Shown here piece by piece: positions 10,301-19,527 of a DNA stretch of 25,802 bases. A program made the position numbers and the translations under genes. The stretch's first letter is position 1, and each line of letters begins with the position of its first letter. A model generated the notes under the pieces. The model searched no databases. It saw only the letters and a program-made list of their open reading frames with translations, and was not told the origin of the DNA. The stretch comes from a virus: IMG/VR virus record IMGVR_UViG_3300044994_000177, positions 1-25,802 of that record. One strand, 5' to 3'.

Positions 10301-10349
10301 CGGGAACGTCGTTCAGGTCACAAGCCCTGACGGCGTGGTTTTCAGCTAA
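7335..10349 (+). CDS. Large tail fibre/tip protein (1004 residues), candidate receptor-binding
   Basis: Starts at GTG 7335 immediately after the previous stop, with GGGTGG as ribosome site inside the end of that gene. Very long, beta-rich and Trp/Tyr/Gly-rich with no membrane segment. About residues 860-960 contain repeated short motifs of the kind seen in BNR/propeller-like blades (LYVVWRDAGDVKLGRAD, then LYIYWRDGSEIKGQIRD), spaced about 45 residues apart. As the last and largest gene of the tail block it is the best candidate here for host recognition, but that is inference. The stop (10347-10349) overlaps the end of a convergent minus gene by eight bases. No chaperone or esterase motif was recognised. 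Confidence 0.6.
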   Translation: MVYKTGRERRAEWSVAGEFNCRYWHRVGFLPSPPDPNIRSRGGTQSLKLGITQNSTSVAFFEMILEPAVPSFDPFGDVFGSLPLPVTLVDQQFSIGVQTGGAPALAPDSDIGAAFWFALPSPTPAQFESECTVDYEVTFGVDLEEYFEVIEIPNPSDPNGFPAYGGVPNNPWNGFPAFDGSKHLRIRWFEATKQHGKINADATLTVTSTEGGGSARVSAESDIDVIIEWHEYGLTVETESLAADTFQTTHSGSQTFNGVLLRAPGMQISGSGYLNAWGEPFVMSVSGVPAEDNYQSVSITDATISPPYEHAYNLQLRNWTSAYPFGQKIRLRKGGTDVHPITDVLLATPNLSGEFEQYRAAGKLWRNGGLHLNYSLDTTGAVGWYLEDPFKQTEPSISANQKEAARDWRIMLSGTAWDAADWEMDNPHTIGAFSSADWSVTNASVASSTPYTDVEPVNPANPIVFTLDTIALADFRAYRFLRFPITYLPFSIPTTEPAVLTIDGRTFSASFDDTSTEIVFDLCNPDDLTPPLQTQDSIWDGLGDGTFGVGQAGAVTLSFKLAANDFISFTGWQMFVSDSAALTCQSSFERWVEGSPERKRFLWLNTDHRIGYEREDMQRTGVAPFYSYSWRSISQLVGDQPKGITITEKTTFPADDFHKNARDAINLGGNGCIITGPIDALVYEETIGVDALTPRKLRGQMQWDSAIGYPIIGNCWDLEPYPDGTDPSIKRALGMRSRKYLRSTSWGLVIGSGGSMGSDVVDALDIVANEPYTDTTDAIGRYTMQHLRGGADHTISYTAASLSNAITVAPRHWHRTAFTGETRFIGAYAVSPSLQHVLGSFEPTPSGLRIGLSFAGNEPFPLVFQLFVTSTPAQNDGMGLAFSDAGTLYVVWRDAGDVKLGRADTYSAITTMATIAAGTDPQIDVSRTGWLYIYWRDGSEIKGQIRDPRGNIVQSVFSAVASGVTGGFSARWSPTAGGSWRMIIIYTSGGNVVQVTSPDGVVFS

Positions 10350-10509
10350 TCAGCATCCCGAGGACGCCGACCGCGAAACCGACGAGCGAACCGGCGATAA
10401 GGCGAGCCACCCAGTCAGCGGTCTGAACGTCTTCGCCCCGCGCGCGGCGGGTCGCCAAATCCATGACGACGAAGAGCAACACGGCGGTCATGCAGATGGC
10501 GATAATCAT
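10342..10509 (-). CDS. Small membrane protein (55 residues), last gene of the minus operon
   Basis: Starts at ATG 10509, which overlaps the upstream stop inside a GGTGGGCAAATGA element. Two hydrophobic helices are visible: residues 1-15 (MIIAICMTAVLLFVV) and about 35-53 (LIAGSLVGFAVGVLGML), separated by a charged loop (ATRRARGEDVQTAD). The size and topology resemble small holins or holin-like pores, and a secreted RlpA-like protein is encoded in the same operon, but no holin family is recognised. Its end overlaps the 1004-residue tail gene by eight bases, convergently. Confidence 0.65.
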   Translation of the reverse strand: MIIAICMTAVLLFVVMDLATRRARGEDVQTADWVARLIAGSLVGFAVGVLGMLIS

Positions 10510-10518
10510 TTGCCCACC
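10506..10518 (-). promoter_or_regulatory. Start/stop coupling element GGTGGGCAAATGA, copy 1
   Basis: On the minus strand it provides a GGTGG ribosome site, the last codons GTG GGC AAA TGA of the upstream gene (ending RVGK) and the ATG of the downstream membrane protein gene. Identical 13-mers occur at 11822, 12576 and 14816. Confidence 0.85.
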
Positions 10519-10997
10519 CTGATTTTGAACGGTGCCAACCCGCACTCTGGCGCGCAACCGAACGAGCGGATGAGAACCAACAAATGTAGAACGGGAATCG
10601 ACAGACGGGCTTCTTTGTTCGGTCTGATTTCCAGTTCCGTTTCATAGTTCGAGCCTAGCATAATCTGGTTCCGTGAATTCACCCGCAGAAACAGCCGTTG
10701 GCTGTGCAGGCTCTTGCCGTCGATGATTCTCAGTGAGATGTCAATCTCAACAAAATCACACTGTTTGTCCACCGTGTATCTATAGCGGGTCACGAACGGG
10801 CACTCGCGCAGCGCGTCGATGCTGGACTTCCGGGCGTCGAGCCCAGTTGCTGCGCGCAGAACATCTCGCCAGTAGACGTCGAGCGGCATGGTTAGGCGTT
10901 GCGCCTCAGCGCGGTCTGCCAGCCGTTGGAGTTCGGCGAGAATCGCGTCTGATTGCTCGGTGATGATTTCTTCCATCACGTCTTGGGCGTTGCTCAT
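10506..10997 (-). CDS. Hypothetical protein (163 residues)
   Basis: ATG at 10997 overlaps the upstream stop as ATGA. The N-terminal 45 residues form an amphipathic, Glu/Ala/Leu-rich helix (EEIITEQSDAILAELQRLADRAEAQR), a probable coiled coil. The rest is a mixed alpha/beta domain with several Arg and four Cys (ECPF, KQCD, GCAPECG), without a recognised motif. It ends KIRVGK, where VGK comes from the shared coupling element. No signal or membrane segment, so likely cytoplasmic. Function unknown. Confidence 0.65.
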   Translation of the reverse strand: MSNAQDVMEEIITEQSDAILAELQRLADRAEAQRLTMPLDVYWRDVLRAATGLDARKSSIDALRECPFVTRYRYTVDKQCDFVEIDISLRIIDGKSLHSQRLFLRVNSRNQIMLGSNYETELEIRPNKEARLSIPVLHLLVLIRSFGCAPECGLAPFKIRVGK

Positions 10998-11203
10998 TGC
11001 AGCCTCTCGAAGCCGAGGTTCATTCGGTCTTGTTCTAGGCGTTCATGACCAGCTGAGACGCTGGAAACGAAATGCACGACGAGTAGCGCGAACGCTGCGG
11101 CGATGACTAACCCGATAATGAGGTTGGCGATCCGCTGCTTACGCTGTTTGGCACGGACGCGGGCGATTTCCGCGTCGGTTGGGTAGTGGTTCATGGTTTT
11201 CAT
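10994..11203 (-). CDS. Single-pass membrane protein with charged ends (69 residues)
   Basis: I use the ATG at 11203 (MKTMNHYPTDAEIARV), which overlaps the upstream stop as ATGA; a longer frame upstream has no coupled start. Residues 4-24 are polar and basic (RVRAKQRKQR), residues 25-45 form one strong membrane helix (NLIIGLVIAAAFALLVVHFV), and the rest is a charged helix (SAGHERLEQDRMNLGFERLQ). The basic stretch before the helix suggests N-in, C-out. The layout recalls phage spanin or holin-associated proteins, but there is no lipobox or family motif. Function unknown. Confidence 0.65.
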   Translation of the reverse strand: MKTMNHYPTDAEIARVRAKQRKQRIANLIIGLVIAAAFALLVVHFVSSVSAGHERLEQDRMNLGFERLQ

Positions 11204-11595
11204 TTGTACTCTTTTGGAATGGGCACTTCCGTCCATTCCGCATCCCCTCTGTGCCATAACCTAAGCGGTGTGAAGTCAGCCCGATTCGTGGTTCCAGGGC
11301 ATCCGATATCGCCCAACATATGCCATGGAGCATCGCCCCAACCGAGCAGGTAATCCATAGCTTGCCCTGGTGTTGTCAGGATTTCGAATGGACCAGAACC
11401 TGCATAATGCTTTATCCCTGAGCAACAGAGAAATTCTCGCCCACAGCCTTCGCATGTAACGATCATCTCTAGTGCCCAGACGTCGTAAACACCGAGCAGG
11501 TCAGGGTGAAATTCCGCATAGCGCGGCACTCCGTTTTGGTCATGCCAGAGCGGTTCGCCTAACCTGTCTCTAATGTCTTCGTAGAGCGGGTACAT
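11200..11595 (-). CDS. Cys-rich hypothetical protein, possible zinc site (131 residues)
   Basis: The ATG at 11595 forms TGATG with the upstream stop and follows GGAGG at four bases; a TTG one codon earlier is too close to the ribosome site. A cysteine cluster CEGCGREFLCC lies at about residues 48-58, with further His and Cys downstream (GIKHYAG, DIGCPG), so a structural zinc site is plausible. The remainder is rich in Trp, Gly and Asp. Family not recognised. It sits between the HicB-like gene and a small membrane protein gene, both overlapping it by a few bases. Confidence 0.65.
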   Translation of the reverse strand: MYPLYEDIRDRLGEPLWHDQNGVPRYAEFHPDLLGVYDVWALEMIVTCEGCGREFLCCSGIKHYAGSGPFEILTTPGQAMDYLLGWGDAPWHMLGDIGCPGTTNRADFTPLRLWHRGDAEWTEVPIPKEYK

Positions 11596-11825
11596 CAATC
11601 CTCCTCCGGCAACGGGATTTCAACGCCCGACTTCATCAGGTCGTCGTAGGCTAGTTTGCGCCGAATTTCCAATCCGTGAATCGCCTCGTTCGGTGAGACC
11701 CCATCGTGCATAGCAACCCCTTTACCGAGTGCAGGTATCCACGCAATCCATCCGCCGCCCTCCTCAGCGGAGAGCCGCCTAATGCACATTGTGTAGTTCA
11801 GCTTGTGCCATTCCTGTCGGGTCAT
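11595..11825 (-). CDS. HicB-like protein without a HicA partner (76 residues)
   Basis: ATG at 11825 lies within the coupling element at 11822. Residues 24-74 follow the HicB partial RNase-H fold pattern: GGGWIAWIPALGKGVAMHDG (strand, then the P.L.G.....G turn), SPNEAIHGLEIRRKLA (helix) and a terminal G...PLPEED, matching the usual G..IP.P ending. HicB antitoxins normally pair with HicA, a small RNA-binding toxin. Neither neighbour looks like HicA (no short basic dsRBD-like protein with GSHH), so this is a solitary member. In phages such orphans may act as antitoxins against host HicA or as regulators; this is inference. No C-terminal DNA-binding domain is present. Confidence 0.6.
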   Translation of the reverse strand: MTRQEWHKLNYTMCIRRLSAEEGGGWIAWIPALGKGVAMHDGVSPNEAIHGLEIRRKLAYDDLMKSGVEIPLPEED

Positions 11826-11834
11826 TTGCCCACC
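11822..11834 (-). promoter_or_regulatory. Start/stop coupling element GGTGGGCAAATGA, copy 2
   Basis: Joins the 119-residue gene (ending SEVGK) to the HicB-like gene, whose ATG overlaps the stop. Exactly the same 13 bases and reading phase as the other three copies. Confidence 0.85.
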
Positions 11835-12181
11835 TCGGAGTACGCAACGTGGAATATGTAAAAGCCTTCACGTGGAAGGTGGCCTTCGTCTGGCGCTTCA
11901 AAGTTGATGTCGTCAATCTCTAAATCACTGCTACTCGCCCAAGCCCCCAACGCCCAACCGGAATCACTCAATTTGTCCAGCACCAGATCGCGAAGGTCGC
12001 AGTCTCCAGTGAGGAAGTCGCGCAACTTCTCAGGAGTCACGCCAACGACCCAAAAATCGTAAACGACAGAGTCAATGCCGACCCCGACATGCAGTTTCCC
12101 GACAAAATCTTTCAGCACAATTACCTGCGGTCCGTCGTACCAAGCCAACGTCTGAGCCAGAGAGAGTGTGCGCATCATCAT
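11822..12181 (-). CDS. Hypothetical protein (119 residues)
   Basis: Three ATG codons in a row start the frame (12181, 12178, 12175); the first overlaps the upstream stop as ATGA, and GGCGGAG lies just upstream. I report the outermost, though the second or third has better ribosome spacing. The protein is acidic, with a short N-terminal helix, a beta-rich part (VIVLKDFVGKLHVGVGI, VVYDFWVVGV) and a C-terminal acidic region with HVAYSEVGK at the end. No signal peptide and no recognised domain. Function unknown. Confidence 0.65.
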   Translation of the reverse strand: MMMRTLSLAQTLAWYDGPQVIVLKDFVGKLHVGVGIDSVVYDFWVVGVTPEKLRDFLTGDCDLRDLVLDKLSDSGWALGAWASSSDLEIDDINFEAPDEGHLPREGFYIFHVAYSEVGK

Positions 12182-12579
12182 TTCTCCGCCTCGATACGCT
12201 GGACGCGCACTTGCCGCAGTCCGGGCTTGGCGTTGCCGGTTACCTCGTTCCACGCACCCCAGCTGAGGTCGATACGCTCTTTACCTGCGTCCCTGAAACG
12301 TCGGTTCATCGTGTCCGTCACGGTCACAACCACCCGCCGGTCTGGGTTGCGAGTCCAGACGATGAGCCGCGTGCCGAACGACCAGCCCTCTTTCAGCCGC
12401 CGTGGATCCACCGCAGCCGTCAACCTGTCGGGTCTGAAACGCTGCCCGTTTGCCATCCTCTTGGTGCCTGCGTGGTAGCGGTCTCCGGGGTAGCCGTAGG
12501 TGCTAGCCGTCAGCGTGTAGACCGGCTCTGGCTTGGCGGGCTGAATGAGTACCAGCGCGCAGAGGGCAATCGCAATCAT
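12178..12579 (-). CDS. Secreted RlpA-like double-psi beta-barrel protein
   Basis: 133 residues from ATG 12579, the start set by the coupling element; a longer frame upstream would lose the signal peptide. Residues 1-19 (MIAIALCALVLIQPAKPEP) look like a short signal sequence or membrane anchor without N-terminal positive charges. The rest follows the RlpA/DPBB layout: ASTYGYPGDRYHAGT, ANGQRF, LTAAVDPRR, FGTRLIVW, VVVTVTDTMNRRF, then IDLSWGAWNEVTG, equivalent to the RlpA sequence around its catalytic Asp and the DLS element. Family members bind or cleave peptidoglycan outside the cytoplasm. In a phage it could help lysis or alter the wall; it is far from the CHAP endolysin. Activity is not shown by sequence alone. 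Confidence 0.7.
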   Translation of the reverse strand: MIAIALCALVLIQPAKPEPVYTLTASTYGYPGDRYHAGTKRMANGQRFRPDRLTAAVDPRRLKEGWSFGTRLIVWTRNPDRRVVVTVTDTMNRRFRDAGKERIDLSWGAWNEVTGNAKPGLRQVRVQRIEAEK

Positions 12580-12588
12580 TTGCCCACC
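12576..12588 (-). promoter_or_regulatory. Start/stop coupling element GGTGGGCAAATGA, copy 3
   Basis: Joins the 118-residue repeat protein gene (ending AKVGK) to the RlpA-like gene. Same 13 bases and same frame as copies at 10506, 11822 and 14816. Confidence 0.85.
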
Positions 12589-12932
12589 TTCGCCGCCCAT
12601 TCTAGGGACGAACCGCAATGGTCTGCCAGCTGGAAAGCACGTTCTGAATCGCCTACTTGTTCAATAATCTGCTCCGCCCATCTGCGATCGGAGCCGCAAA
12701 GAGAAACCATGCAAATTGCCAAGCGAGCGTCTTTTGACGCCTCGATAACTTGTTCTGCCCACTCTCGGTCGGAGCGGCAGTGATAGGCCATTTCGCAGGC
12801 GTAGATACCGCTTCCTGCCTGCTCGATGATTCGCTCTGCTTCCGCCCTAAAATCAGGGATTTGGGCTGCGATCCGAAACGCCATCTCAGGCGTCAGGTAG
12901 CAATTGTAGTTAGCTTTATGTTCTTCGTTCAT
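12576..12932 (-). CDS. Helical repeat protein with three 27-residue units (118 residues)
   Basis: ATG 12932 overlaps the upstream stop and follows GGAGGAGA. After a 31-residue N-terminus come three consecutive 27-residue repeats at about 32-58, 59-85 and 86-112. Each starts AE(R/Q)(I/V)IE and ends (S/D)xxxW, with a conserved (H/L)C(G/R)S near the end (HCRSDREW, LCGSDRRW, HCGSSLEW). Each unit looks like two short helices, so a small solenoid is expected, possibly for protein binding; it resembles DUF4116-type repeats in style, but I cannot assign it. A paralogue with two units lies at 14816-15070 in the same operon. Both end in VGK from the shared junction element. Confidence 0.7.
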   Translation of the reverse strand: MNEEHKANYNCYLTPEMAFRIAAQIPDFRAEAERIIEQAGSGIYACEMAYHCRSDREWAEQVIEASKDARLAICMVSLCGSDRRWAEQIIEQVGDSERAFQLADHCGSSLEWAAKVGK

Positions 12933-13276
12933 TGTGTGTTCTCCTCCGCAAATCGCTGGAAAATCCCGCTCTCGCGCAAATCATCCAGCACCGCGTTAAA
13001 CTCGTCTTCGTCACCATCGCAAACGTGTAACTCGCCCTCGCTAATCGTGACAGTTGTTGTGTCCGGCAAGCAGAATACCGAAGTCACCCGCCAGCGTCCA
13101 ATCTGCACCGAGACGGACGCGGAAATATCGGTTATGCCATATGCCAGATGAGTCAGCATATCGTCGTATCGCACATAGAGTGCAACACATAGAAATTCGT
13201 CATCCGGCATTGGCTCCCAGCCCAGCACCTCGCAGAGCCTGCTAACCGCCTGCTCCATCATTTCTTGTCTAGTCAT
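12929..13276 (-). CDS. Hypothetical protein (115 residues)
   Basis: I take the ATG at 13276 (MTRQEMMEQAV), eight bases inside the end of the Rad52-like gene and seven bases after GGAG; the earlier TTG at 13288 overlaps that ribosome site. The N-terminus is helical, the middle is beta-rich (VALYVRYDDMLTHLAYGI, ASVSVQIGRWRVTSVF) and the end is acidic (GELHVCDGDEDEF) with a last helix. Its first residues MTRQE match those of the HicB-like gene. No known domain seen. Confidence 0.65.
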   Translation of the reverse strand: MTRQEMMEQAVSRLCEVLGWEPMPDDEFLCVALYVRYDDMLTHLAYGITDISASVSVQIGRWRVTSVFCLPDTTTVTISEGELHVCDGDEDEFNAVLDDLRESGIFQRFAEENTQ

Positions 13277-13898
13277 TCTTAACTCCAAGAGTGAGATAGT
13301 TCATCGTGTCATCGCCGGTTGCGCAACCAGCCTCGACAGCAGACGCGAGCAGACCATAGGGTTCGCCCATTGCCGTAATCGCCTCGAACTGCTCCTTGCT
13401 GACGCCAGCATCTTTCACAAGCTGTTTCTTCTGCGCAGCAGTCAGCACCGCCGGTTTTTCAGCACGCTCCGGCTCTCGCAATCCTTCATGGTCTGGCTTC
13501 TCCCAGAGCCAATTACCGAAGGCGTCCCCGAATGTCCTAAGGGCGCGTTTCAGCGCGTCGGTCACTGCCTCTTTCGATGCTTTTTCACTGTCGCCAGAAC
13601 CCCAGCCTGTATCCTCGCGGGTGACGGACGAGCCGCATACATTTGCGGTTACCTTGACCACTGCGAGCCAGCCGCTGGATCCGATTTGCCGGAGGTCGGT
13701 AACACTGTAGCTCCAGCCGCCAAAGCCGAAGATTTTGTTGGCTTGGTCGATGGCAACATAGCCCGCTATGTAGTCGAGCGTTTTACCCCCTGCACCCTGC
13801 CGCTGCTTGATTAACGATTTGTCAATCTGTTTAGCCAACATCTGTTCCTGCGTCTCGCGGGGAAAGTGCTGGTCGATTTTGTCGCCGGCTTTCGTCAC
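13269..13898 (-). CDS. Rad52-family single-strand annealing protein
   Basis: 209 residues starting at GTG 13898, which overlaps the upstream stop as GTGA and follows GGAGG at six bases. The family anneals complementary single strands in phage recombination. Visible hallmarks: QRQGAGGKTLDYIAGYVA (about 32-49), IFGFGGWSYSV (56-66), a strand pair with VKVTANVCG, then SVTREDTGWGSGD (91-103) followed by the signature helix KASKEAVTDALKRALRTFG (106-124) and DAFGNWLW. This is the Rad52/Rad22 core in the usual order. The C-terminal 75 residues are Lys/Glu/Ala-rich and probably bind partners such as SSB. It is preceded by a Gam-like gene and a tiny SSB-like frame, so this is the phage recombination module. 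Confidence 0.92.
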   Translation of the reverse strand: MTKAGDKIDQHFPRETQEQMLAKQIDKSLIKQRQGAGGKTLDYIAGYVAIDQANKIFGFGGWSYSVTDLRQIGSSGWLAVVKVTANVCGSSVTREDTGWGSGDSEKASKEAVTDALKRALRTFGDAFGNWLWEKPDHEGLREPERAEKPAVLTAAQKKQLVKDAGVSKEQFEAITAMGEPYGLLASAVEAGCATGDDTMNYLTLGVKND

Positions 13899-14413
13899 TT
13901 TGAACCTCCGAGCTTGACGGCGAACGACTCGCCAGCAGGCACGACTTCAGCAACGCCAGCAGCCAGAGCAGACTCTAGAGCTTCGCCGGTCAGCTTCGAG
14001 ACCAACGGCGATTTGGTGATTTTCACCGCTTCCGGCGTGTAAGCCTCAAGCCACGGCAGCGCGTCCTCTGTCAGTGCCACCCGTTCGGGCGTGGTTCGGA
14101 AGCTAAGCCGACCATATGGCAGCGTCAGCGTTTTGGTTTTCTGGTCTGCCAGCTGCTCCCGAGCGAACGATTCAAGTTCACCGGAGAATCTGGTTTGCAG
14201 CCAGTTCAGCCGCGACTCATGCTGTTTAACCAGCTTTTCGAGGTTGGATTTTGCCGCTTCCATGGCTGCCTGCTCGGCTAGCATTTTTCGCATCACCCAG
14301 TTAGCGGAGTCCGCATCTCGAACGTGGAATTGCTCAGCGGTTTCGTGTCCTAAAATCTCGCCAGTTTCTGGGTTGACGAGAAACCCGTCTATGTTGATTG
14401 TTGTGGTTTCCAT
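13895..14413 (-). CDS. Gam-like host-nuclease inhibitor or DNA-end protein
   Basis: 172 residues from ATG 14413, eight bases after the SSB-like mini frame. Residues about 40-95 form a long coiled coil (ANWVMRKMLAEQAAMEAAK to SFAREQLADQ). This is followed by a strand motif KTLTLPYGRLSFRTTPE, which matches the K(T)L.(Y/F)G..SFR hallmark of Mu Gam-like and related phage proteins, then a helix-turn with ALPWLEAYTPEAVKITKSP. Mu Gam binds DNA ends and blocks exonucleases; related proteins often accompany annealing proteins, as here. The gene product is cytoplasmic. Exact biochemical role is inferred from the family and the neighbourhood. Confidence 0.7.
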   Translation of the reverse strand: METTTINIDGFLVNPETGEILGHETAEQFHVRDADSANWVMRKMLAEQAAMEAAKSNLEKLVKQHESRLNWLQTRFSGELESFAREQLADQKTKTLTLPYGRLSFRTTPERVALTEDALPWLEAYTPEAVKITKSPLVSKLTGEALESALAAGVAEVVPAGESFAVKLGGSK

Positions 14414-14421
14414 TGTGGTTG

Positions 14422-14490
14422 TTAGTCCTCGAACGGGTCGAACGGTTCGGGGTCTCGCCCCAGCCGTCCGATGATGATTAGTTTATTCAT
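14422..14490 (-). CDS. 22-residue SSB-like mini-ORF (N-terminal SSB stub)
   Basis: Minus-strand ATG (14490-14488) to TAA (14424-14422). The peptide is MNKLIIIGRLGRDPE followed by PFDPFED. The first 15 residues match the start of bacterial and phage SSB (MNKVILIGRLGRDPE), while the last seven are an acidic, Phe-containing tip that recalls SSB tails. The body of the OB fold is missing. The ATG overlaps the preceding gene's stop as ATGA, and the frame lies exactly where ssb would be expected, beside Gam-like and Rad52-like genes. It is either a deletion remnant of ssb or a functional micropeptide; the sequence alone cannot decide. Confidence 0.6.
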   Translation of the reverse strand: MNKLIIIGRLGRDPEPFDPFED

Positions 14491-14819
14491 TGTGCTTCTT
14501 GTGTTTCGTAGCGCACCCAGCGGCAAGCCCGCTGATAGTCTGCGCTCGTTGTCATGCCGAGTTCGCGGCAAATCGTCCTAATGGTTCGGTCGCCTTGCAG
14601 CCAAGCTTTAACCACCGCCTCCCGCTGTTCGAGACCATCGACTGTGAGGGGTTTCGCCGGTTGGCGTAGCTGCTCTTCTCGCGCCCATCGTCTAACCGAC
14701 GCTTCACCGCAACCAACTTGCGCGGCTATCTGGCGATAACTGAGCCGAGTCGAGACCAGCAGGTGCAATGCGTGGGCGCGCTCAGCGACAAGGACGGGTT
14801 TTCGTGGTCGCCCTCTCAT
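14487..14819 (-). CDS. Helix-turn-helix regulator with AT-hook-like start
   Basis: 110 residues from ATG 14819, which overlaps the upstream stop inside the coupling element. The N-terminus MRGRPRKPV carries an AT-hook-like RGRP core that would insert into the minor groove. Residues about 28-50 (LSYRQIAAQVGCGEASVRRW) are a clear helix-turn-helix, and a second, weaker one follows (TIRTICRELGMTTSADYQRA, about 80-100), so the layout is two tandem HTHs as in resolvase/transposase-like DNA-binding parts. There is no catalytic domain. As second gene of the recombination operon it is a reasonable candidate to regulate its own promoter at 15077-15107, but this is inference. Confidence 0.65.
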   Translation of the reverse strand: MRGRPRKPVLVAERAHALHLLVSTRLSYRQIAAQVGCGEASVRRWAREEQLRQPAKPLTVDGLEQREAVVKAWLQGDRTIRTICRELGMTTSADYQRACRWVRYETQEAQ

Positions 14820-14828
14820 TTGCCCACC
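14816..14828 (-). promoter_or_regulatory. Start/stop coupling element GGTGGGCAAATGA, copy 4
   Basis: Joins the 84-residue repeat protein gene (ending RQVGK) to the HTH gene. Same 13 bases and same phase as the other copies. Confidence 0.85.
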
Positions 14829-15070
14829 TGCCGCAACCACTCACGAGATGAGCCGCAATCCTCAACCATCTTTATTGCCACCCATGTATCGCCTGCTCGC
14901 TCAATGATGCGTTCCGCCCACTCGCGGGGCGAGCCGCAGTCGCGAACCATTTGGTAGGCGTCTTCGGCAGCCTCCTCGATAATTCGCTCAGCTTCCGGAC
15001 GAAACTCAGGGTCGGCTTTCGCTCGCCGATATGCTTCGTAGGGCGTCGGTTGTTCTGTGTTTTCGTTCAT
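14816..15070 (-). CDS. Helical repeat protein with two units (84 residues), first gene of the minus operon
   Basis: I choose ATG 15070 (MNENTEQPTPYEAY): the longer frame to 15091 would begin inside the promoter. Residues 27-51 and 52-78 are two copies of the unit seen in the protein at 12576-12932 (AERIIE......DCGSPREW and AERIIERAG...DCGSSREW); the first lacks two residues. The predicted -10 (CATAAT, 15082-15077) ends only six bases before the ATG and no ribosome site fits in between, so the mRNA may be leaderless. Role unknown; its paralogy with a gene of the same operon shows within-genome duplication. Confidence 0.7.
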   Translation of the reverse strand: MNENTEQPTPYEAYRRAKADPEFRPEAERIIEEAAEDAYQMVRDCGSPREWAERIIERAGDTWVAIKMVEDCGSSREWLRQVGK

Positions 15071-15632: not shown

Positions 15633-16472
15633 ATGAACAAATCCAGTGTACCACAAGTGTCGGTGGACGCAACCGGTGAACGACCGCCCAGCCGCATAAA
15701 CGGCAAGCAGAACCCAGAATATCAGCGGTGGCGATACCGCCAGAAGCAAGCAGCCGCAGCCGGCGACCTGAACGAAACCAACGCACTGCTAGAGACGCTG
15801 ATTGCCGAGGTGCAGACGCTTTCACAGCTTCTCCGCGACCTGTCTCAGACTATCGCCCAGCAGTCCATGTTGTCACAACATTTAGAGGGTGTTGCGCGAC
15901 AATTTGAACCCACAACTGCAACAATCGCACAACATGTTGTGAATGTTGTTAACAACACGCACCAAGAACGACCCGATGTTGTCACAACATTTGAACCTGA
16001 AAATCAGAGCGTTGAACCTAATGTTGTGAATGTTGTTAACAACACGCAGCCAACAAAAAGCCCCCCCTCTTCTCCCCCCCTAATTTCCCCCCTTCCCCCT
16101 AACAACCCCCTACCCCCCTATAATCCCCCCAACATCACCCCCCAAAAAGAGATCCCCCCTTTAGGGGATAAATCCCCTCCCCCCTACGCCAAAACCGGCG
16201 GGGTTAATGGCGTCTGGGAGCGTCTCCCCGCAGACTGGCAGACCCCCGAGATGCGGGCAATGCTCGATGCGTTCGAGATGCACAGGAAGTCGCTGCGCAA
16301 GTCGGCGTGGACGCCCATTGGTTGCCAGCAGAAAGTCACCGAATGGCTGAAACACGACCTGCAAACGGTGATTGACTCTGGCTGGCACAGCATCGAGCAA
16401 AATTGGCAGGGTATCATCGTCCGACCCGACCGAAACCAGCGCAAAATGCCGATTATCCCCGAGGGATGGTAA
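15633..16472 (+). CDS. Replication initiator candidate carrying the origin
   Basis: 279 residues; ATG 15633, directly after an in-frame GTG (15630). Residues about 20-50 are basic (RINGKQNPEYQRWRYRQKQ), 55-95 form a leucine-rich coiled coil, 100-140 contain a repeated NVVNVVNNT segment, and 140-190 are almost pure Pro/Asn/Ser linker. The C-terminal domain (TPEMRAMLDAFEMHRKSLRK, then TVIDSGWHSIEQNWQGIIV) resembles the C-terminal helical domain of DnaD-like phage replication proteins, ending in the I..S...nW.G pattern. Lambda-type initiators also carry the origin inside their gene, and palindromic repeats plus a C-rich tract are present here. Next to a helicase-loader-like gene. Confidence 0.6.
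   Translation: MNKSSVPQVSVDATGERPPSRINGKQNPEYQRWRYRQKQAAAAGDLNETNALLETLIAEVQTLSQLLRDLSQTIAQQSMLSQHLEGVARQFEPTTATIAQHVVNVVNNTHQERPDVVTTFEPENQSVEPNVVNVVNNTQPTKSPPSSPPLISPLPPNNPLPPYNPPNITPQKEIPPLGDKSPPPYAKTGGVNGVWERLPADWQTPEMRAMLDAFEMHRKSLRKSAWTPIGCQQKVTEWLKHDLQTVIDSGWHSIEQNWQGIIVRPDRNQRKMPIIPEGW
15867..16048 (+). repeat. Iteron/palindrome cluster, candidate origin of replication
   Basis: Two copies of ATGTTGTCACAACAT (15867-15881, 15976-15990, nearly palindromic), one perfect 14-bp palindrome CACAACATGTTGTG (15928-15941), and a 28-bp exact direct repeat at 15934-15961 and 16021-16048, each containing the palindrome TGTTGTTAACAACA. All share a TGTTGT/ACAACA core. The cluster lies inside the initiator gene. 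Confidence 0.75.
16061..16185 (+). repeat. C-rich low-complexity tract, G-quadruplex potential on the minus strand
   Basis: More than ten runs of four to seven C separated by short A/T spacers, encoding the Pro/Asn linker of the initiator. The minus strand therefore has many G runs close enough to fold into G-quadruplexes. It directly follows the iterons. Confidence 0.85.
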
Positions 16473-16485
16473 AACAAATTCGAAC

Positions 16486-17013
16486 ATGCAACTGACCACC
16501 GAGACAGTGAAAGCCGCCCTCAAACTCTGGGCGCGGCACCTGAAAAACCCGCCCCAACTGACCGACGAAATGGCAACCGACTGGCGGTTGATTTTTGATT
16601 CTGAAATACCGGACCAGACCTTCAAAAGCCTTGCCGTTGCAGCACTCCGAACCCTGACATGGTTCCCCGCTCCAGCAGAGTTCGCGGCACTTATGGAGAC
16701 CGGACTGGACGAACGCGCCGAATTGGCGTGGCTGCACGTCAAGCGGCGCGGTGGCAACATCAAAACCCCCGCCGATGTTGGCGGCGAACCGTGCGCACTA
16801 TGGGCAGCTGCAAGTCTGGGCAAACACGCTCTGGAATCGCTCCGTCATCACCCATCAGACCCGTTCAACGAACGCGAACTGAAAAAGGATTTTCTGCTGC
16901 TATACAAGCTGGCATGGCGCCGTGGTCTAGGGCTTGAGACCTACAGCGGGAAACGTCCGGAACTGCCGCAATCCCAAATCAGCAGAAACCAACAACTGCC
17001 GGAACACGTCTGA
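16486..17013 (+). CDS. Helicase loader/inhibitor candidate (G39P-like)
   Basis: 175 residues from ATG 16486; the frame is open further upstream but that part overlaps the initiator gene and looks like a shadow. The first 80 residues match the plan of small phage helicase loaders: a helix (TETVKAALKLWARHLKN), an LTDEMATDWRLIFDS helix and an AALRTLTWFPAPAEFAALME end equivalent to the F-P-P-x-A-E motif. The C-terminus is Arg/Glu/Gln-rich (LETYSGKRPELPQSQI). Loaders of this kind bring a DnaB-type helicase to the initiator; no helicase is encoded in the window, so a host helicase may be used. Adjacent to the initiator with 13 bases between. Confidence 0.55.
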   Translation: MQLTTETVKAALKLWARHLKNPPQLTDEMATDWRLIFDSEIPDQTFKSLAVAALRTLTWFPAPAEFAALMETGLDERAELAWLHVKRRGGNIKTPADVGGEPCALWAAASLGKHALESLRHHPSDPFNERELKKDFLLLYKLAWRRGLGLETYSGKRPELPQSQISRNQQLPEHV

Positions 17014-17024
17014 AACCAGAGCCG

Positions 17025-17576
17025 ATGAGTAAGCCCGCATTTGTCCGCACCATGACCGACGCTCAGTGGCGAAACGCAACCACCCACGAAAAAGCCCTGC
17101 ATGTCGCGAGAGGTAAAGTCGGCGTCAGAGGCGAATGGGGACACGGGCGCGGCTTCTGGGTCAACCAATTTCTGGCGTCCGTCGGGCTAAGTCCCGGCTA
17201 CAACTGGTGCGCCGCTTTCGTGCGCTGGTGCCTACTCCAAGCAGGCGCGCCGGCTAACAGACTTCCGAATGCGAGGCAGTCGGCAGGCGTCTGGGCATGG
17301 CGCAACTGGGGACGCGAAACGCTCCGACTGAAGCGGAACAACCCCGAACGCGGAGATCTGTTCTTCTGGATTAACCCGAACGGCACCGGTCACATCGGCT
17401 TCATCGCCGAGGTCTTCCGCGACAAGAACGGCAACTGGGCAAGCCTGCGCACGCTTGAGGGCAATACGAACGCCGCCGGTTCACGCACTGGCAACGCCGT
17501 TGCAGAGCAGAGGCGCAGCCGAGCGTTGCTGCAGTCCAAGCACGACTTCGGGTTTGTCAGCCTCAGAGGTTTGTGA
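17025..17576 (+). CDS. CHAP-domain endolysin
   Basis: 183 residues from ATG 17025; ribosome site weak (GAGCCG). The CHAP fold is visible: YNWCAAFVRWCLLQAG with the nucleophile Cys62, PERGDLFFWINPNGTGHIGFIAEV with His123, and TLEGNTN (about 143-149), which supplies the third polar position. CHAP enzymes are amidases or endopeptidases that cut peptidoglycan. The N-terminal 35 residues are basic (TTHEKALHVARGKVGVRG) and no signal peptide is present, so a holin is needed for release. Two small membrane protein genes follow at once, completing a lysis cassette. Confidence 0.85.
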   Translation: MSKPAFVRTMTDAQWRNATTHEKALHVARGKVGVRGEWGHGRGFWVNQFLASVGLSPGYNWCAAFVRWCLLQAGAPANRLPNARQSAGVWAWRNWGRETLRLKRNNPERGDLFFWINPNGTGHIGFIAEVFRDKNGNWASLRTLEGNTNAAGSRTGNAVAEQRRSRALLQSKHDFGFVSLRGL

Positions 17577-17818
17577 TGAGCGAGAAAACGGAAACGCAAA
17601 TCATCGAACAAGTCAGCCGCATGATGGCACTGGTCAAAACAATAGTCGCGCTGGTGTGCGTTCTCGGTCTGGCAACGTTCTGGATTGCCATGATGCAGTT
17701 TCAGCTAATGGCACTGGGCGATGACGTTGGGCGGGTAAAATCGCAACTTGAACGCCTAACGGAGGAGACAACCGCCAGCCGCGAGCGTCTTATCAGGCTG
17801 GAGGAAAAATCACGATGA
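17576..17818 (+). CDS. Membrane protein with coiled-coil tail, lysis cassette (holin/XhlA-type)
   Basis: 80 residues; ATG 17576 shares TGATG with the endolysin stop and follows AGAGG at about six bases (a GTG one codon earlier is in frame). Residues 1-20 are polar, 22-42 form one membrane helix (LVKTIVALVCVLGLATFWI), and about 50-80 are a coiled coil (VGRVKSQLERLTEETTASRERLIRLEEK). The combination of one membrane helix plus a coil recalls XhlA-type or other lysis-associated proteins, though XhlA has the reverse order. Likely works with the endolysin and the next gene. Confidence 0.65.
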   Translation: MSEKTETQIIEQVSRMMALVKTIVALVCVLGLATFWIAMMQFQLMALGDDVGRVKSQLERLTEETTASRERLIRLEEKSR

Positions 17819-18006
17819 ATTTTCAAAACGTTTTAGCTGGAGCAGTGGCAGGATTCCTTGCCGCTCTAATTGTTGACCTCAACGCGTGGAAACACGCAAT
17901 CGAGCAGGGGTTGGGTTTCGAGTTCGATTGGAAACTCGCGCTCGTTCGATGGGTTACGGGCATCATCTCAGGCGCGTTAGCGGGTCTGGGTATTTCAAAT
18001 CTTTAA
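17815..18006 (+). CDS. Small holin candidate (63 residues)
   Basis: ATG 17815 overlaps the previous stop as ATGA. Two hydrophobic segments: residues 5-21 (NVLAGAVAGFLAALIVD) and 43-62 (LVRWVTGIISGALAGLGIS), separated by an amphipathic acidic stretch (HAIEQGLGFEFDWKL). Two membrane helices in a very small protein directly behind an endolysin is the typical class II holin layout. Followed by a hairpin terminator, so it closes this operon. No specific holin family recognised. Confidence 0.65.
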   Translation: MNFQNVLAGAVAGFLAALIVDLNAWKHAIEQGLGFEFDWKLALVRWVTGIISGALAGLGISNL

Positions 18007-18024
18007 CGGGTAAGAGCAAACAAC

Positions 18025-18061
18025 GGGCGGTTGTTCCCCTTCGCAGCCGCCCCAAAATTTT
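18025..18061 (+). terminator. Hairpin terminator after the lysis cassette
   Basis: GGGCGGTTG (18025-18033) pairs with CAGCCGCCC (18044-18052), a nine-pair stem with one G-U pair and a loop of ten, followed by CAAAATTTT. The T run starts five bases after the stem and is only four long, so termination may be partial. Confidence 0.55.
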
Positions 18062-18070
18062 AATCACTTT

Positions 18071-18457
18071 ATGCCAGCAGGTCGAAAGCGCGATTCCGAA
18101 ATAGACGAGAAAATCGAGCAGGTCATTAAATTGATTGAGCAGGGTCTGTTCGTCAACCACGCGGCGGCGTCGTGCGGTTTGTCAAAAGACACTCTGTATA
18201 ACCGAATGCGCGAAGACCCGGAGGTGAGGGCGCGAGTTATCGCAGCAGGCGACAAGGCGTTCGGTCTGATGGAGAAAATCGTTATGCGCGCTGCCTTGCA
18301 AGACTGGAAAGCCTCCGCATGGTATCTCGAACGCCGGAAGCCGGAACTCTATGGTCGCCGAATGAAACTCGACATCTCTAAGATGAGTACAGAACAATTG
18401 CAGGAACTGCTAGAGCAGCTAGACGACGAAAGGTTCGAGATTGACGAATCACTATGA
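18071..18457 (+). CDS. terS: Terminase small subunit
   Basis: 128 residues from ATG 18071, no ribosome site, with a TTTAAT hexamer six bases before. N-terminal helix-turn-helix: residues 14-45 (IEQVIKLIEQGLFVNHAAASCGLSKDTLYNRM), which would bind the packaging site. The centre contains the small-terminase hallmark ASAWYLERRKPELYGRR (about 78-94), and an acidic, Leu-rich C-terminus (EQLQELLEQLDDERFEIDE) expected to contact the large subunit. It acts as a ring that recognises phage DNA for packaging. The large subunit lies downstream, unusually separated by a damaged gene and a reverse-strand gene. Confidence 0.85.
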   Translation: MPAGRKRDSEIDEKIEQVIKLIEQGLFVNHAAASCGLSKDTLYNRMREDPEVRARVIAAGDKAFGLMEKIVMRAALQDWKASAWYLERRKPELYGRRMKLDISKMSTEQLQELLEQLDDERFEIDESL

Positions 18458-18642
18458 TAACGCAGGTCCCCGTTAAGAAGATTATTCCGCACCCGAAGAA
18501 CGCAAGGCGCTGGCAAACAACGCGACGCGAAGACCAGATGCCGTTGCGCTCTTTACAGATAGCAACCTCAATGTCGGGATTACTCCGTCAAGATGGGACG
18601 GATACCGCGAGCATGGCAACAACATCAAAGACGCGGTCGTAA
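18454..18642 (+). CDS. ParB-like N-terminal stub with a nonsense-like tail
   Basis: ATG 18454 overlaps the small terminase stop as ATGA. The first 20 residues (MITQVPVKKIIPHPKNARRW) match the start of ParB/Srx-like domains (V....I.PHP.NAR), which occur beside phage terminases, often fused to methylases. After residue about 21 the composition becomes Thr/Ser/Arg/Met-rich and shadow-like, and the frame stops at 18642. In the -1 frame a protein-like reading begins at about the same place (see 18477-18758). I read this as a gene that has lost its frame, or one needing a frameshift. Confidence 0.4.
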   Translation: MITQVPVKKIIPHPKNARRWQTTRREDQMPLRSLQIATSMSGLLRQDGTDTASMATTSKTRS

Positions 18643-18758
18643 GAATAAACCACCACCTCAGAGGGTTGGGCGAGGTGGTGGAGCGAGTCCGTTGTAAATC
18701 GATGTCTTACGGCATCATCAAGTTTTCCAAGCCAGCTCCTGAACTCGGGAGTGGTTGA
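18477..18758 (+). pseudogene. Protein-like frame without a start, -1 to the ParB-like stub
   Basis: Open from after TAA (18474-18476) to TGA 18756-18758, about 93 codons, with no ATG until MSYGIIKF near the end. The reading is protein-like: DAVALFTDSNLNVGITPSRW, YREHGNNIKDAVVRINHHL and GEVVERVRCKSMSYGIIKF. It lies one frame back from the 18454 gene. Possible explanations: a natural frameshift mutation, a programmed -1 frameshift, a rare start codon, or a sequencing error. No strong slippery heptamer was found in the overlap. The end overlaps the convergent DUF5131 gene by about 40 bases. Confidence 0.45.
18650..18681. repeat. Perfect 10-bp inverted repeat (stem-loop)
   Basis: CCACCACCTC (18650-18659) and GAGGTGGTGG (18672-18681) are exact complements around a 12-base loop, just after the stop of the 18454 frame. 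No T run follows on either side, so it is not a classical terminator. Confidence 0.75.
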
Positions 18759-19527
18759 AGTGTTCCGCCAACTGCTTGGCGTTCATCTGGAGAGGAACTG
18801 GCACTGGGTCGATGAACTTGCCGGGCATCTGGTGCCAGACCCAAAAGGTGCCGTCCTCATGCTCAAGGCAAACGCCCGTCTCTGTCCTGAATCCGCTGGA
18901 CTGCTTGAAGAAGTAGGCGGTGCCTGATTTCAGACAATTGTCTCGGACTGTTCGCGCCCAAGCGTGTTCCATATGCCGAAAGCCGGGACCAGACTCACCG
19001 CCGACGATCACCCAGTCGATGCCATCGAATGTAGAATCAAGCTGACCAATCAGAGGTTCAACAGACAGGAATTTAACCGCCGCGCCACACTGGCGAATCA
19101 TGTCTACACGCTTCTCAACTCTGTTGTCCTCAACAGATGCGCCCATCCAGATATGCTCGCCCCAATTGAGTTCCAGCTTTGCCAGTCTTTCCGGGCGTTT
19201 GGTCAAAATCTGAAATACCAAATCCGGTCGAGCGTTCATCGCGTCAAAAACATTGGCGATAAAATCGTCGGGTACTGAATCGTGCAGCAAATCCGACATC
19301 GAGTTGACAAACACCCGAGAGCCAGACTTGATTGGTTTCAGTTTCTGGAGCCGCCCTGGGTGGCACTTGACATTCACAGCCGAATTGCGAGCCGTCCACT
19401 TTTCAGAAGTCCAGCCACGATTCAAGCTCAATCGTTCCGCGTAGCAGTTCCGGCAGCCTTCGCTAACTTTAGAGCAACCGGTTACCGGATTCCAGGTTGC
19501 ATCCGTCCATGATATTATGGTTCCCAT
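18718..19527 (-). CDS. DUF5131 (phage Gp37/Gp68 family) protein
   Basis: 269 residues from ATG 19527. The N-terminus ISWTDATWNPVTGCSKVSEG followed by CRNCYAERL is the family hallmark, with Cys18, Cys25 and Cys28 as a probable metal or iron-sulfur site. Further family segments are VFVNSMSDLLHDSVPDDF, VFQILTKRPERL, IWMGASVEDN, VKFLSVEPLIG, IDWVIVGGESGPG and a late TAYFFKQ. The fold resembles radical-SAM-like barrels, but the spacing CX6CX2C is not the canonical CX3CX2C. Biochemical function is unknown. It is read against the packaging genes, with its own putative -10 (TACAAT, about 19540) ten bases before the start, and is bordered by the damaged gene and the large terminase. Confidence 0.88.
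   Translation of the reverse strand: MGTIISWTDATWNPVTGCSKVSEGCRNCYAERLSLNRGWTSEKWTARNSAVNVKCHPGRLQKLKPIKSGSRVFVNSMSDLLHDSVPDDFIANVFDAMNARPDLVFQILTKRPERLAKLELNWGEHIWMGASVEDNRVEKRVDMIRQCGAAVKFLSVEPLIGQLDSTFDGIDWVIVGGESGPGFRHMEHAWARTVRDNCLKSGTAYFFKQSSGFRTETGVCLEHEDGTFWVWHQMPGKFIDPVPVPLQMNAKQLAEHFNHSRVQELAWKT

Follow-up and report, generated by a model that had tools for sequence, protein, structure and literature searches.

A 13-base start joint repeated exactly at four gene boundaries of one phage genome

This report concerns a 13-base sequence (13-mer) that stands in exact copy at four gene joints of a 25,802-base virus record (IMG/VR IMGVR_UViG_3300044994_000177), the whole of which is referred to below as the window, and in which the end of one gene and the start of the next overlap. 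The window is exceptional in holding four exact copies in one genome, and between it and a near-identical contig a cassette of genes that includes two of these copies has been exchanged, with edges at start codons. The explanation which we favour, and to which we give about even odds, is that coupling joints were copied within one genome and also serve as module boundaries; the whole case is suggestive, not proof. By kind, the 13-mer appears to be an ordinary Shine-Dalgarno (SD)-bearing ATGA coupling joint of a sort that arises repeatedly, and it adds a further case to a known class of gene boundary, new in that one exact 13-base version stands at four joints of one genome.

All four copies lie on the minus strand, and the reversed control pattern has no site in the window. 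At 14816-14828 the 13-mer joins a repeat protein gene (14816-15070) to an HTH gene (14487-14819), at 12576-12588 a second repeat protein gene (12576-12932) to a weakly RlpA-like gene (12178-12579), at 11822-11834 an orphan gene (11822-12181) to a small gene (11595-11825), and at 10506-10518 another orphan gene (10506-10997) to a small membrane-like gene (10342-10509). At each joint the upstream open reading frame (ORF) ends in the identical codons GTG GGC AAA TGA (Val-Gly-Lys-stop), the ATG of the downstream gene overlaps this TGA by four nucleotides (ATGA), and all 13 bases are the same, those outside the SD pairing included; the base preceding the 13-mer, which would strengthen this pairing, is G in one copy and A in three. 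Both the positions of the copies and this shared geometry had been described in an earlier note on this DNA, and both are confirmed. Sites with up to three mismatches number 11 in the window, where 100 shuffles give 7.23 on average; it is only the exact copies that stand out, and these are confined to leftward non-structural genes in one orientation.

The genes on either side of the joints had been taken to be otherwise unrelated, which stands only in part. The repeat proteins encoded upstream of 12576 and 14816 are homologous (51% identity), and 56 nucleotides spanning the 13-mer and the bases preceding it are 71% identical between the two joints, a pair that, judged from these alignments, can share its joint by descent. 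The four copies are therefore not four independent events, and three unrelated upstream contexts remain, the upstream genes at 10506 and 11822 showing no recognisable kinship to the repeat proteins. As a short sequence shared at four boundaries in these three contexts, the 13-mer resembles phage boundary sequences. The joint at 12576 also bears traces on both of its sides: its upstream side resembles that of 14816 with a score that none of about 1,460 random pairs attains, and its downstream side weakly resembles that of 10506, with a score reached by 0.6% of random pairs in what is one comparison out of 12. This two-sided likeness, weak in its second half, is the pattern that would be expected from boundary copying or from a crossover at the joint.

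A sibling contig (L126, record G001), whose flanks measured 99.6-99.8% identical to the window, retains two copies, those at 10506 and 14816, and contains no further site at up to two mismatches. The copies at 11822 and 12576 belong to an allelic cassette (11204-12923, minus strand) of 1,720 nucleotides, comprising the body of a repeat gene and four genes, in place of which the sibling has 316 nucleotides that hold another repeat gene and a short non-coding spacer. Identity breaks off nine bases inside the repeat gene, 12924 being the last shared base, and returns at 11203, where the ATG of the next gene has its A. In the sibling the homologous repeat gene ends Val-Gly-Arg-stop and no gene overlaps it; where its tail can be aligned with that of the window's repeat gene, the two diverge inside the 13-mer at 12576. 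No contig with a deletion between two 13-mer copies was found.

A second line of evidence comes from another IMG/VR family, in which the upstream gene ends Leu/Met-Lys-Val-Gly-Lys-stop at the 13-mer. Among the matches listed, 47 of 49 such loci share this upstream gene, which is followed by a next gene of one kind in 45 and of another kind in two. When one locus (L051) is compared with three others (L020, L119 and L065), the alignment stops at the last base of the 13-mer in all three pairs, and the match between L071 and L020 likewise runs to that base and not directly beyond; in these family pairs the upstream gene is 88-93% identical over 60 nucleotides, and the downstream genes are unrelated. 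The suggestion that the 13-mer provides homology for the shuffling of small genes is partly supported: it gains from the exchange of a cassette that holds two copies and has its edges at start codons, and from the change of downstream gene at the 13-mer in an unrelated family, and loses in that neither cassette edge is itself a 13-mer.

According to the favoured explanation, GGTG(G) in the last codons of the upstream gene would recruit or hold the ribosome for the overlapping ATG, and the exact copies would most likely stem from the copying of an existing gene boundary during the gain or exchange of small genes. Probably the repeat-protein gene supplied this boundary, its 3' end being copied along with the start signal of the following gene, and the resulting joints may then act as module edges, at which genes could be swapped with reading frames and start signals left intact. 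A plausible agent is the phage's own Rad52-family annealing protein (gene at 13269-13898, minus strand; Pfam PF04098, E 4e-25), a possible recombinase for short-homology exchange. Translational coupling at the joints, as the earlier note had proposed, is supported in silico by the four-nucleotide overlap in all four copies and by predicted pairing with the anti-SD sequence.

Several findings weigh against copying. The cassette edges in the sole close relative are start-codon joints of which neither is a 13-mer copy. The resemblance of 10506 to 12576 on the downstream side is weak when set against 12 comparisons, and at each of the two the gene start encodes a hydrophobic leader. Loci of the parallel family were found by searching with the 13-mer; its conservation among them therefore reflects the selection of matches, and the exact end of the alignments is partly built in, although the sudden change after an upstream stretch of up to 93% identity is not. 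Furthermore, the excess of shared joints within genomes that is described below for motif-found loci consists of two cases only, L006 and L147, one of them from a contig found via the motif, and is not repeated in unselected loci. Finally, the predicted pairing assumes a canonical anti-SD sequence.

The alternative that survives best, a serious contender even if we think it unlikely, is convergence, in which host and phage would favour this form of ribosome site with ATGA, the unrelated joints would have arisen independently and only the pair at 12576 and 14816 would share descent. IMG/VR was searched with a 14-mer, the 13-mer preceded by A, and the matches listed, to which the following counts refer, comprise 121 sites in 120 stretches, of which 74 lie at joints, 39 lie elsewhere and 8 were left out as too near a contig end. 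After homologues were collapsed, 22 of 47 clusters were joints, and these 22 are mutually non-homologous. Any ATGA falls at a joint far less often (754 of 8,641), whereas GGTGG-bearing ATGA in unselected loci does so at 9 of 22 sites (all 240 control loci used), about as often as the motif, which is, as a motif, an ordinary ribosome site. A special tie of the 13-mer to joints, considered as a candidate, was dropped on this comparison. On the possibility, which the earlier note had raised against its own proposal, that the 13-mer is equally common away from starts or is an ordinary ribosome site, the outcome is divided: the motif is ordinary elsewhere, but four exact copies are unusual. Whole records were checked for 35 of the 120 stretches listed, and 32 hold one exact copy, three hold two (G025, G026 and G028) and none holds more. 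The pair in G026 sits at the two contig ends, while G025 and G028 belong to the parallel family; in the latter the two copies of the same joint lie in a repeated tail-type module (L069 9500-13337).

Convergence also finds support in an unrelated contig (L006) with four successive near-identical joints. Against it, the phage has GGAGG-like sites at its other starts, and the four copies, though good, rank below the strongest of its sites: their predicted pairing ranges from -7.6 to -10.9 kcal/mol, with a canonical anti-SD that may not be the host's, and ranks 3, 5, 10 and 13 among 37 hand-listed starts of the window. In addition, the bases that do not pair are also kept, and exact sharing between loci is rare, as the following counts illustrate. 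Joints were gathered mechanically as ATGA that is preceded by 45 or more open codons, is followed by 40 or more and has a predicted SD pairing of -6 kcal/mol or better, a set which includes some spurious ones. The window has 12 such joints, four of them the exact 13-mer joints, and 6 of 66 pairs are identical over the nine bases before ATGA (3 of 55 when the two repeat-gene joints are counted as one). In loci found via the motif, with the motif joints removed, this nine-base identity occurs in 2 of 57,573 pairs between genomes and in 2 of 1,033 within genomes (Fisher p 0.0018). The control consisted of 167 de-duplicated loci found via two unrelated patterns, 73 of 240 having been dropped as near-duplicates, and here 2 of 26,257 pairs between loci and none of 306 ATGA-joint pairs within loci share nine bases. 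Exact nine-base sharing between loci is therefore of the order of 1 in 10,000 or rarer, and even at a generous sharing rate of 1% the bound for a triple match is, by arithmetic, 0.006 (8 joints) to 0.017 (11 joints). Chance is an unlikely source of the shared joints. The reuse of joints within genomes as a general phage habit was dropped as a candidate, given the two motif-selected cases and the absence of any in unselected loci.

A regulatory element in the manner of the start-associated sequence (SAS) of cluster K phages is improbable as an explanation; the 13-mer would then be a binding site for a protein or RNA of phage or host and would control the leftward non-structural genes. The SAS is described as 13 bp long, present in 11-19 copies, usually 3-7 bp before the start and in about half of the cases accompanied by 17-bp inverted repeats (PMC3203893, PMC12699233). 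Like the 13-mer it has an SD-like core, is repeated near the starts of non-structural genes in one main orientation and sometimes contains the upstream stop (PMC3203893, PMC12699233), and the restriction of the 13-mer to leftward non-structural genes likewise agrees with that pattern (PMC3203893). In contrast, the 13-mer has another consensus and only four copies, each containing the start codon instead of preceding it, and the SAS consensus has no site in the window at up to two mismatches and five at three mismatches, against a chance mean of 5.10. RNA structure exceeds that of shuffles neither at the four joints (z -0.48 to 0.33) nor at the sibling's spacer. Hence, the parallel with cluster K that the earlier note had drawn extends to position only, since consensus, spacing and the number of copies all differ.

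Selection on the protein end, under which Val-Gly-Lys would be a functional tail or tag at the C terminus and would bring the DNA identity with it, is highly improbable: the repeat gene does end in Val-Gly-Lys or Val-Gly-Arg in all three members, but the same codons and the same overlap recur in all four copies, the other two upstream proteins are unlike the repeat proteins around their ends, and no relatives that keep Val-Gly-Lys with other codons were found, the relatives of the joint region being the sibling only. Chance repetition or an assembly artefact is likewise very improbable, for although sites with up to three mismatches are no commoner than in shuffles, the four exact copies all occupy the same kind of place where arithmetic expects fewer than 0.001 in 25.8 kb on both strands, two of them recur in an independent contig, and 13 bases are too short to mislead the usual assembly.

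A stronger form of the copied-boundary explanation, which we regard as doubtful, would make the 13-mer a portable start joint, one that works wherever it is placed and has just enough homology for the Rad52-family protein to swap genes, the translation signal being at the same time the recombination site. The repeated joints in L006 would then be another instance, as would those in L147, where two identical joints of a different sequence, with the same 11 bases before ATGA, flank a gene (16680-17357) that we take to encode a DNA methyltransferase.

Known systems come close to several components of the favoured explanation. Termination-reinitiation coupling at ATGA overlaps with an internal SD motif has been tested for other genes, and the present joints share with it the four-nucleotide overlap and an SD motif within the upstream gene's 3' end; they differ in that one exact 13-base version occurs at four joints, where the coupling is read from sequence (PMC6728339). 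The nearest precedent for the exchange idea is provided by phage boundary sequences, as at Island3 gene 68, an extra gene of which the 3' end duplicates about 50 bp from the 3' end of the gene upstream, recombination between the two having been proposed; there, too, a short sequence is shared at gene ends, whereas here it is 13 bases in four copies and doubles as the start signal for the gene that follows (PMC3029335). Relaxed recombination has been described for phage Rad52-like proteins (PMC3945230), and the leftward genes here include a Rad52-family member, a candidate for similar activity. In a search of open-licence full texts the 13-mer itself occurs in one paper, on the salt response of a haloarchaeon. 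These comparisons touch the old question of why phage mosaics break at gene edges. The rival answers are random breakage followed by selection, and recombination at boundaries that share a short sequence. If the favoured explanation is true, a start signal is a repeated gene edge, and the boundary-recombination answer becomes open to test by simple deletions, the 13-base site being known.

Relatives of the joint region beyond the sibling were not found in viral contigs, genome contigs or phages. A terminase search returned two near-identical contigs, of which L125 does not include the joint region, and three distant ones; the sibling contigs stem from IMG/VR samples 3300045922 and 3300045911. 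The Rad52 gene, the repeat-protein alignment and gene 10506-10997 each recovered the sibling only from viral contigs; the repeat-protein alignment recovered nothing from genome contigs, and neither the repeat protein nor gene 10506-10997 had a match in phages. For the other joint genes, viral contigs and genome contigs gave none, and of the searches against phages three gave none and two others one and two weak partial matches. A distant blastn search with the whole block found none in phages.

The window also carries HK97-type genes (terminase, portal, prohead protease and capsid), and its leftward genes at about 10.3-15.1 kb include a Mu Gam-like gene in addition to the Rad52-family gene. 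Of the names proposed earlier for genes at the joints, HTH is borne out (Pfam HTH_23, 33.4 bits, cut-off 24.6), RlpA-like has weak backing (DPBB_1 at E 1.7e-4, under its cut-off) and the HicB-like gene has no Pfam match at E 0.01. The neighbouring genes 11595-11825 and 12929-13276 (minus strand) both start Met-Thr-Arg-Gln-Glu, and the 13-mer precedes only the former. A 22-codon ORF at 14422-14490 (minus strand) resembles the truncated start of a single-strand binding protein. At 15867-16048, exact palindrome-like repeats form two operator-like pairs (17 and 28 nucleotides) within about 180 bases. In the sibling L126, about 3.2 kb (16249-19462) joins the window's right end to its left end, which suggests that the map is circular or permuted and about 29 kb long. 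Lastly, a DUF5131 gene (18718-19527, minus strand) is intact in the window and disrupted differently in the two sibling contigs, most of 18786-19496 being missing in L126 and 116 other bases replacing 18511-19351 in L125.

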